27,513 nt of DNA from a virus. A model generated the notes under the pieces. The model was not told where the DNA came from. It worked only from the letters and a program-made list of their open reading frames with translations, and ran no database searches. A program made the translations under genes and the position numbers. Below, piece after piece: positions 1,993-12,128 of this stretch; positions within the stretch are counted from its first letter, which is position 1, and each line of letters opens with the position of its first letter. The stretch lies in IMG/VR virus record IMGVR_UViG_3300045912_000940, positions 1-27,513 of that record. One strand, given 5' to 3'.

Positions 1993-2956
1993 TCCGCTCG
2001 AATTATTCTGCCCGTTGGCAGACGCCGTCACGCCGATTGTGTCGGTTCACAACGTCTCGGCGTGGCCCGGCGGCGTGTTCGCCCGCCTGCTCGACCTTGG
2101 CCTGTTAATTCCGGGCGAGGAAGCCAACCGCGTTCTTTGTCCCGACTGCCACGAGCACTACGAGGAGGTACTTGCCTGCGAAGGACCGGGCCGGACTACC
2201 TACTACTTCATCACCTGCCCCCAAGGTCTTCGCGTCCGGGTGTCGCGTGACGCTCGCCGCCAGTGGGCGGTTAATTTCAGCGCATTGGTGCGATCACTCA
2301 CTGCTACGCTCAAGCTCACCGGCAAGGTGAGTGAATTGTCGCCCAATCGAATGTGGCGGCTCGGTCGAACGAACTGGCAGGGAACCTCGCGTGACGTGCT
2401 GCTGGCCCGCGGTTTGAACTGGGCCGACGCGACGAGTATTCGCGGTTCTATCACGCAAGCCCGCAAGCCGATTGTGTTCGTTCCCCATTTCAAGCCTGCT
2501 GCCGACTTCTGGAATGGACGAGTGCCGCCGGTGATCGCTCTCGATCAAGTGGCAACCATCGGCGAAACCGGTCTCGACATCGACCCGCTCGAAATCACGA
2601 CCGCCGTGCAGGAAGCGGATACCGCTCCACGCGATGTCGTTGCCGTCACCTCCGAGCAGCTCACACTCATGATTCGTCGCCAGATGAAAGCCGAGCACAA
2701 GTCGAACCTGACGGACGATGTGTTCTTGGCGGCCTACCGTCAGCACGGCTCAGTCCGCAAAGCGGCTGAATTCCTCTCACAGGAAACTTGTTCGACAATC
2801 TCGAAGGACCAAGTTCAGCGTGCCGTCACGCGGGCTGGCGGTGCGGGGGAAGTGCTCAATGCCGAAGACAGCGATTCCGTGGTCCGGCCTGTCGCGTCGC
2901 GGTCTCGCGACAGGAAGGGAAAAAACCTGATTCGTGCAAAACCCAAGGAGGAGTAG
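1985..2956 (+). CDS. Zinc-ribbon and HTH protein, unknown function
   Basis: This 323-residue protein begins at GTG 1985, inside the end of the preceding gene (GTGCCTGA junction), with a GGGGGA ribosome site 7-12 bases upstream. An earlier in-frame ATG (1934) lacks this context. Near the N-terminus it carries a metal-binding cluster: C52-P-D-C55, then C65 and C78-P, as in a zinc ribbon. A C-terminal segment (about residues 240-287) resembles a helix-turn-helix: a GSVRKAAEFLS helix, a turn, then ISKDQVQRAV. The end is basic (RSRDRKGKNLIRAKPKEE). Together these suggest a DNA- or RNA-binding regulator. Coupled translation with the upstream unknown gene argues for a shared function. I cannot name a family. 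It could be the transcriptional regulator of the cassette or the specificity component of a defence module. Confidence 0.72.
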   Translation: MPDPLELFCPLADAVTPIVSVHNVSAWPGGVFARLLDLGLLIPGEEANRVLCPDCHEHYEEVLACEGPGRTTYYFITCPQGLRVRVSRDARRQWAVNFSALVRSLTATLKLTGKVSELSPNRMWRLGRTNWQGTSRDVLLARGLNWADATSIRGSITQARKPIVFVPHFKPAADFWNGRVPPVIALDQVATIGETGLDIDPLEITTAVQEADTAPRDVVAVTSEQLTLMIRRQMKAEHKSNLTDDVFLAAYRQHGSVRKAAEFLSQETCSTISKDQVQRAVTRAGGAGEVLNAEDSDSVVRPVASRSRDRKGKNLIRAKPKEE

Positions 2957-3163
2957 GCATTTTCGCTTCGCGGTCGCGGCCCCGATCTCGTGCGGGGCTG
3001 TCGCAAACCGCGACACGCCGGGCGGCCGGTAAGGCCGTGAGGCGTTCATAACCCGGCAGTCAAAAGCGCTCGTGCGGTTTCGCGGTGAGGCACCGCGACG
3101 CGACGCTCCTGCTCCTCAAGAGCGGATGACCGTGGTTGACAGCTTCCGGCCCCGGAGGCTGTC
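2957..3163 (+). promoter_or_regulatory. Structured non-coding leader of the sigma-like gene
   Basis: This 207-base stretch has no credible gene and can form five successive hairpins. Hairpin 1 spans 2968-3013: TCGCGGT/ACCGCGA outer stem, GCG/CGC middle, GCCCCG/CGGGGC inner stem with an 8-base loop. Hairpin 2 spans 3015-3045: ACGCC/GGCGT and CGGCC/GGCCG with a GGTAA loop. Hairpin 3 spans 3065-3107: AGCG/CGCT, TCG/CGA, CG/CG, then TCGCGGTG/CACCGCGA with a 3-base loop. Hairpin 4 spans 3111-3123: GCTC/GAGC. The last hairpin (3138-3163) covers the downstream ribosome site. An alternative pairing, GCCGGG 3017-3022 with CCCGGC 3052-3057, competes with hairpin 2, so a switch is conceivable. The region is GC-rich, which raises the chance of fortuitous stems. 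It could instead be a small RNA or simply a transcription terminator region for the upstream cassette. Confidence 0.5.
3138..3163 (+). promoter_or_regulatory. Hairpin sequestering the ribosome binding site
   Basis: GACAGC (3138-3143) pairs with GCTGTC (3158-3163). A T-G wobble and TCCG/CGGA continue the stem to a four-base GCCC loop, giving 11 pairs. The only good Shine-Dalgarno sequence for the next gene, GGAGG at 3154-3158, lies in the 3' arm, and the GTG start (3164) immediately follows the stem. Translation of the sigma-like protein should therefore be low unless the stem is opened. The geometry is seen directly. The regulatory role is inference. Confidence 0.6.
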
Positions 3164-3748
3164 GTGGACAGTACGCACGGGAAAGATTTCGTTCTCACGG
3201 ATTACGCCAAGAAACTCATCAGGTTCAAGGCTCGCCAACTCTGCCGGCGTCGCGATTTCCTCACTTCCGATCAAGACGATCTTCAGCAGGAACTCTGGCT
3301 GATGGTTTGTGAACGCGCCGATGGGTTCAATCCGGCGAAGGCCTCCCTCAACACGTTCATCGACCGGGTCGTCAATTCGGCGGTCGCCCAGATCGTGCGG
3401 AATCGTGAACGGCTCAAACGCGGCAAAGGCGGGCACGTCGTTTCGCTCGACGGCGAAGACAGTCACCGCGCGCGGCCAAGTCCGATGTCCAGCGGGCTTT
3501 CTCCCGAACACCTCTACCGGCGTATCGGCGTTTATCCAGCGGACCCCATCACCGTTCGGGAAACCGCCGAAGCGGTCCAAGCCGTCCTCATGCGAATGCC
3601 GGAAGATCTGCGGGAGATTTGCCTTTGCTTGATGAACGGCACAGCGAACTCCGTCGCGTGCGACATGCACATTTCGCGTCGCGCGTTGCGAAAGGCCTGT
3701 CTCGTGATTCGGGAGTTTCTCGAACGAGCCGGACTCGAAAACGGCTGA
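3164..3748 (+). CDS. Sigma-70-family-like transcription factor encoded by the phage
   Basis: This 194-residue protein has the layout of a minimal (ECF-sized) sigma factor. Residues about 12-88 look like region 2: DDLQQELWLMVCERADGFNP, then SLNTFIDRVVNSAV and a basic RNRERLKRGK helix. A linker (about 90-130) follows. Residues about 132-190 look like a region 4 helix-turn-helix: MPEDLREICLCL, turn, HISRRALRKACLVIREFL. It would bind host core RNA polymerase and redirect it to phage promoters. The start is GTG 3164, with GGAGG 5 bases upstream but locked in a hairpin. The next in-frame Met falls inside region 2. It sits just before the replication operon and next to the first copy of a repeated 33-bp element that could be its promoter. 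Divergence from classical sigma factors is high, so a non-sigma HTH role remains possible. Confidence 0.72.
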   Translation: MDSTHGKDFVLTDYAKKLIRFKARQLCRRRDFLTSDQDDLQQELWLMVCERADGFNPAKASLNTFIDRVVNSAVAQIVRNRERLKRGKGGHVVSLDGEDSHRARPSPMSSGLSPEHLYRRIGVYPADPITVRETAEAVQAVLMRMPEDLREICLCLMNGTANSVACDMHISRRALRKACLVIREFLERAGLENG

Positions 3749-12042: not shown

Positions 12043-12083
12043 GGTCTTCGTCCTCATTCGTGGTGTTTGGCTGCCATCTTCAG

Positions 12084-12121
12084 GCGGCGGGAGCCACCCG
12101 CCGCGACCCGCGAAAGCGGGT
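12084..12121 (-). other. Tandem hairpins between the two minus-strand genes
   Basis: Two stems lie back to back. GCGGCGGG (12084-12091) pairs with CCCGCCGC (12097-12104), and ACCCGC (12106-12111) pairs with GCGGGT (12116-12121) around a GAAA loop as read on the plus strand. On the minus strand they fall between the 73-residue gene and the HARE-HTH gene, where they could stabilise, process or attenuate the message. No T run follows on the minus strand. Confidence 0.45.
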
Positions 12122-12128
12122 TTCGGCT

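Follow-up and report, generated by a model that had tools for sequence, protein, structure and literature searches.

The leader of a sigma-factor gene carried by a virus is likely to be a two-state, riboswitch-like translational switch that is closed by default, as judged from comparison with its relatives. The window, which is the whole stretch of DNA analysed here, is a 27.5-kb virus fragment with the gene order of a tailed phage, and positions 3010–3163 of its + strand are almost certainly a conserved cis-acting RNA. The conservation of this element, its position, its helices and the partner-specific complementarity of both of its competing pairings are directly supported. The mechanism is held with distinctly less confidence than the existence of the RNA because the open state carries an energy penalty, needs a helper and, in some relatives, leaves the ribosome-binding strand paired with another strand of the leader.

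From left to right, the window encodes a regulator/protease-like protein and two proteins of unknown function, and then has a gap of 207 nt (2957–3163). On the 3' side of the gap follow a sigma-like factor, a 114-aa protein, a Sak4-like ATPase, a DUF669 protein, a helicase and a primase, and then a DNA methyltransferase, terminase, portal and a capsid/protease protein. The gene of the sigma-70/ECF-like factor (3164–3748, + strand) lies directly 3' of the leader. Its product matches Sigma70_r2 (6e-5) and ECF (2.4e-4) in Pfam and the sigma factor family 1740 in PHROG (1.1e-5), its profile matches in the PDB include RpoE/RpoS, and nearly all the best structural matches of its fold model, which is of moderate quality (pLDDT 75, pTM 0.41), are sigma factors. 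These matches agree with one another and with the preliminary description of the gene as sigma-like, and the product is predicted, from a sequence signal that is weak and evidence that is concordant throughout, to have the region 2 and region 4 homology of the sigma-70 family. In the relative L049, the sigma gene (2382–2960 of that locus) has one in-frame stop codon within the aligned stretch. Elsewhere in the window, the minus strand carries a type II hammerhead ribozyme at 12065–12128 (48.2 bits, E = 3.4e-7), which lies antisense to a gene whose function is unknown.

The whole gap had been regarded as a structured leader, which holds for 3010–3163 and not for 2957–3009, the two parts being 91.6% and 50.9% identical, respectively, to the nearest relative, L012. 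Of the genes nearby, the sigma gene is 73.0% identical to that of L012 and the upstream 340-aa gene 69.5%, with 54% for the tail of the 414-aa gene. On the basis of this profile, the conserved unit extends from about 3010 to the sigma start codon, and the covariance-model match spans 3010–3166, start codon included, with 155 bits for model R1 and 129 bits for model R3. A hairpin described at 2968–3013 lies almost wholly outside this unit, and its 5' arm is not conserved. The palindrome TGTCGC..GCGACA occurs exactly twice in the window (2890–2912 and 2999–3015), one towards each end of the gap's 5' part, and two copies are reached in 2 of 100 shuffles; type-B relatives have tandem TGCCACA..TGTGGCA palindromes at the corresponding place, and these palindromes may be operators. 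A conserved upstream reading frame was considered and rejected, as the ATG at 3126 is not kept among the relatives.

Folding of the whole gap on the + strand gives −110.1 kcal/mol compared with −92.4 kcal/mol for dinucleotide shuffles (z = −3.77; 0/200), and thus the shuffling control proposed at the outset comes out in favour of structure. The minus strand of the gap also folds well relative to shuffles (z = −3.13), and therefore folding energy alone decides little and comparison with relatives is needed. The 5' part (2957–3009) is weakly better than its shuffles (z = −1.63). When counted on the + strand, the helices contain 80 G–U pairs and 35 A–C mismatches, and this excess favours an RNA transcribed as the + strand.

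Relatives of the element were gathered through three routes, namely the neighbouring ATPase, the sigma protein and a 15-base motif of the RNA itself. The family comprises at least 38 viral or prophage loci, many of them in viruses of planctomycete bacteria, and at all the loci checked, those found by the RNA alone among them, the RNA abuts the sigma start codon. The final model, R3, recovers 38 loci at E ≤ 0.01 and weak members besides, of which L191 lies in the named isolate Thalassoglobus neptunius, a planctomycete. The genuine motif matches (L085, L090 and L096) have a sigma gene directly downstream. Among 392 genomes from the phylum of the Isosphaeraceae record, six carry the RNA according to model R1, including six places new to the set, all with a sigma gene next, and two further loci, again both followed by a sigma gene, are found in a genome titled 'Nevskiales bacterium PRO7'. 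No copy turned up in 241 genomes sampled from the phylum of the Verrucomicrobia record, a search that had no positive control. Rfam 15 gives only a chance match (E = 9) for positions 2900–3250 and none at the gathering threshold for eight relatives. Known ribozymes and other Rfam RNAs are therefore rejected as the identity of the element, which belongs to no catalogued RNA family tested here, and a literature search of incomplete coverage found no report of it.

Several other database matches with the CATAACCCGGCAGTC 15-mer resemble integron attC sites, and the pairing gives no support to a likeness of CATAACCCGGCAGTC to tRNA-Met anticodon arms or attC sites. The 15-mer CATAACCCGGCRGTC also occurs in the attC-like integron sites of L093, L100, L102, L106 and L117, which is taken as coincidence. 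A different conserved leader, with a GTCGTTGTGGGTGTCGCC core, is seen about 200 nt before more distant sigma relatives (L186, L188, L195, L196 and L197), and the leader with this GTCGTTGTGGGTGTCGCC core ends in a similar hairpin over the ribosome-binding site.

The covariance analysis of homologous leaders, which had been suggested as a second check, reveals strong covariation that is repeated in held-out loci. In the first structure, built on 28 aligned sequences, 81.9% of the alignment cells are paired compared with 30–47% when the partners are slid by 1–3 columns, and 27 of the 40 pairs have double changes, in which both sides differ (0/500 shuffles equal this). The paired fraction is 77.4% (31–43% when slid) in 11 held-out loci, which were absent from model building, and 80.3% (32–46% when slid) in 12 held-out loci scored with the final structure. 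The five hairpins of the preliminary description match the minimum-energy fold of the single sequence, and the comparative data alter this picture. Its hairpin at 3065–3107 is real and corresponds to P4 (3066–3106), a long hairpin with a lower stem (3066–3074/3099–3106) and an upper stem (3081–3087/3091–3097) separated by an asymmetric internal loop of 6 nt and 1 nt, which is kept while the sequence changes. The two stems have 81–95% of cells paired with many double changes, and 84–92% in held-out loci. P5 (3109–3125) and P6 (3138–3163) are likewise confirmed as hairpins. P5 is small and variable in sequence with its pairing mostly retained (about 70% of cells; double changes in 6 of 6 pairs), and P6 is placed directly before the start codon (85.8% of cells paired; double changes in 8 of 11 pairs). 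The 3' arm of P6 contains the Shine-Dalgarno sequence GGAGG (3154–3158), 5 nt before the GTG at 3164. The view that there is more structure here than a simple leader needs is thus borne out, since the structure is conserved and covarying, adjoins the sigma start codon and holds the Shine-Dalgarno sequence in a hairpin. Two further candidates were discarded. P3, a small hairpin with a GNRA-like loop, has just 28% of cells paired, and P8 with a 1-nt bulge explains its bases better. A pseudoknot between a segment upstream of strand 2 and the 5' strand or internal loop of P4 is conspicuous in some type-B loci (e.g. L045 and L049) and scores z = +0.85 against shuffles in the window.

The leader is laid out as four strands: strand 1 (about 3012–3032), strand 2 (3033–3061), strand 3 (3127–3151) and strand 4 (3153–3163), which contains the Shine-Dalgarno sequence. 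Strand 1 can pair with strand 2 while strands 3 and 4 form a hairpin, or strand 2 can pair with strand 3 through P7 and P8 with strand 4 freed, and the 1:2 pairing (P2/P3) precludes the 2:3 pairing. Strand 1 overlaps hairpin 2 of the preliminary description and pairs with strand 2 at 3012–3014/3059–3061 and 3017–3022/3052–3057; the latter helix, which had been noted as an alternative pairing, therefore belongs to a real helix set. Part X of strand 2, AACCCGGCAGTC (3050–3061), is the most conserved stretch, with P2 as its pairing upstream and P7 downstream. In the first model, R1, P2 was the sole pairing of AACCCGGCAGTC, a view that was given up. The covariation of P2 by itself is weak (185/5000), and so the search was led to P7.

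P7 and P8 had been missed in the first reading. Part Y of strand 3, TGACCGTGGTT (3127–3137), is the 3' strand of P7 and pairs with 3050–3058 with single-nt bulges to close a three-way junction with P4 and P5. P7 occurs in the minimum-energy fold of the window and is 82.7% paired when the alignment has not been fitted to this helix, with compensated changes in L135 (AACT/AGTT) and L222 (CCCGC/GCGGG). The 5' strand of P8 is part Z of strand 2, GGCCG-u-GAGGC (3033–3043), and its 3' strand is part V of strand 3, GCTTCCGGCC (3142–3151), which is also the 5' arm and loop of P6. The outer helix of P8 is 80.6% paired with 20 double changes, and compensated changes are seen in L177 (GGGTCG/CGACCC), L085 (TGCCG/CGGCA), L083 (GCTG/CAGC) and L045 (GACCG/CGGTC). 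The GAGG motif of part Z is nearly invariant (28/28; L052 has GGGG), and the invariant GAGG/CCTC core of P8 gives covariation nothing to score. Conserved unpaired bases are few, namely ACAT between P8 and P7. Since P7 and P8 are collinear, all of strand 2 can pair with all of strand 3, leaving the Shine-Dalgarno strand without a partner.

Permutation tests, in which the duplex energy with the own partner is compared with that for partners drawn from other sequences, show that each of these pairings is partner-specific. None of 5000 permutations is as good as the own partners for P7, for P8 or, in 34 sequences, for the 1:2 pairing, and 4 of 5000 are for P7 in held-out loci, whereas the negative control 1:3 gives no signal (4961/5000). 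The result is similar among 21 representatives below 72% identity (P7, 0/5000; P8, 1/5000) and for the 1:2 pairing in 19 such sequences (1/5000), while four control strand pairs in the diverged set show no signal (3464–4646/5000). Some shared ancestry is left in by these tests; the control strand pairs nonetheless behave as expected. A wider 2:3 window that omits the outer P8 bases is not significant (932/5000), and so the P7 and P8 windows are needed for the 2:3 signal. As the 1:2 and 2:3 pairings are both partner-specific and yet exclusive, both helix sets seem to be kept by selection. Two exclusive helix sets that both appear to be under selection are the signature expected of a two-state RNA.

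Natural recombinants bear on the same pairings. L180 and L181, two loci in one Gemmatales genome assembly, are 98–100% identical downstream of about −100 (numbered from the sigma gene) and 14–32% identical upstream of −150, and the same break is found in L179/L049. Both pairs share strands 2–4 and have unrelated 5' modules, each of which supplies its own strand 1: GCCGGGT against the AACCCGGC part of strand 2, or GCCTCTC against its GAGAGGC part. In L180 and L181 (around 3850) and in L179 and L049, unrelated 5' gene modules are joined to near-identical RNA and sigma sequence, a pattern that reads as an exchange of modules at the RNA's 5' border.

The same evidence bears on a static leader, which is unlikely but is the strongest alternative. 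The leader would simply hide the ribosome-binding site and be opened or clamped by an antisense RNA or by a protein of the phage or the host, with P4/P5/P7 as a binding platform and internal strand exchange irrelevant. The strength and conservation of P6 in most loci agree with this explanation, phage leaders bound by the phage's own proteins are known from T4 gp32 or gp43 (PMC3014915), and a compact P7/P4/P5 junction stacked on P6 could act as a protein operator. A static leader, however, leaves unexplained the partner-specific 1:2 pairing and P8, which exclude P7 and P6, as well as the blocking of strand 2 by two unrelated 5' modules.

A plausible working model for the two-state switch is as follows. 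Positions 3010–3163 would form the 5' leader of the sigma-factor mRNA. In the closed state, strand 1 would hold strand 2, and P6, formed by strands 3 and 4, would hide GGAGG. In the open state, strands 2 and 3 would pair as the collinear helices P7 (3050–3058/3127–3137) and P8 (3033–3043/3142–3151), which would close the three-way junction over P4 and P5, deprive P6 of its 5' arm and set the Shine-Dalgarno sequence free. The sigma factor would then be made and drive phage genes, probably those of the downstream replication module, and the leader is thus probably an on/off switch of the sigma gene. Strand exchange in the cell, action on translation and the closed state as the default are each deduced rather than observed, as is the driver of the exchange, which may be a signal such as a ligand, a phage or host protein, or folding kinetics.

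The median energy difference between P2-type and P7-type folds is only 1 kcal/mol. Nearest-neighbour energies put the open state, in which the Shine-Dalgarno sequence is free, at a median of 8.7 kcal/mol above the closed state (range −3 to +25), and therefore the open state needs help or is short-lived and the closed state is the likely default. A ligand or a protein could provide this help, as could co-transcriptional folding or tertiary contacts within the P4/P5/P7 junction. In L135, L175 and L215, the best fold has strand 4 on strand 1 while the 2:3 pairing forms, and so the 2:3 pairing need not always free the ribosome-binding site. The earlier suggestion of a riboswitch-like element holds in form, because two exclusive helix sets both covary, and its ligand part, ligand binding being what defines a riboswitch, is putative. 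At the level of sequence, the leader has the exclusive conserved helices at the ribosome-binding site that characterise a riboswitch expression platform, through which it may control access to that site. It is a tentative suggestion that P7/P4/P5 is a putative small-molecule aptamer, perhaps for a host-state signal, and that the leader represents a new riboswitch class timing the sigma factor and the replication module in Planctomycetota phages. If the switch model is true, a conserved RNA switch heads the replication module of little-studied planctomycete phages and prophages and controls a phage-encoded sigma factor. In hosts about whose phage gene control hardly anything is known, the leader would be a decision point open to direct testing and might come with an orphan ligand, and nature's swapping of a single switch strand among unrelated 5' modules would be an unusual evolutionary experiment on switch wiring.

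Timing by transcript start, which appears quite improbable, would have the ribosome-binding site hidden in long read-through transcripts, and a promoter within the leader would give others without the blocking strands. The T4 genes e, soc, 49 and I-TevI do have hairpins that sequester the ribosome-binding site together with internal late promoters (PMC3014915), and in the relative L220 an intrinsic terminator (1467–1485 of L220) immediately precedes the RNA. A similar hairpin with a T-run, missed by the scan, is seen by eye in L218. For such timing, however, P6 alone would suffice and 100 nt of conserved, covarying structure upstream would be superfluous, and a scan of the leader for sigma-70-like promoters, the one type covered, found none. 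An RNA thermometer, in which P6 or the two-state balance melts with temperature, is more improbable still. Sigma-factor (rpoH) and phage (lambda cIII) leaders include thermosensors, that of cIII with two exclusive conformations (PMC4166951), but here the strand architecture is conserved rather than the stability. The hairpin P6 is G+C-rich, with energies between about −7 and −24 kcal/mol among the relatives, and there is therefore no common melting point, which disfavours the thermosensing role considered in the preliminary description. The idea of a DNA element (an operator or recombination site), an independent small RNA or a ribozyme has very little left to recommend it: TGTCGC..GCGACA palindromes flank the 5' end, tandem palindromes occur in type-B relatives and gene modules are exchanged at the 5' end of the block, but the G–U excess belongs to the + strand, no ribozyme or Rfam match was obtained, and a small RNA, marked by its own transcription unit and no tie to one gene, is unlikely and unsupported because the element abuts the sigma gene at every checked locus and contains its ribosome-binding site.

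The proposed switch shares with translational riboswitches the exclusive helices of the 5' leader, which keep the Shine-Dalgarno sequence paired in one state and leave it free in the other; it differs in having no known aptamer, ligand or Rfam family and in that the gene encodes a phage sigma factor and is not metabolic. We know of no report that the leader of rpoH or of rpoS has the present four-strand layout. The E. coli rpoS mRNA encodes a sigma factor and is under translational control by leader structure, as would be the case here, but it is a host gene whose leader is opened by small RNAs. The same kind of control operates on the sigma-factor mRNA of E. coli rpoH, also a host gene, whose structure extends into the coding region and senses heat (PMC4166951). 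The T4 gene 32/43 and gene e/I-TevI leaders are phage leaders that block translation initiation, but they are a protein-bound pseudoknot or hairpin, or a simple ribosome-binding-site hairpin with a late promoter, and no competing strand set is described there (PMC3014915). In the phage lambda cIII leader, two exclusive conformations set ribosome access (PMC4166951), as proposed here for another phage leader; no relation in sequence or structure between the two is shown, and the present element differs in having a three-way junction and an architecture kept over deep divergence.
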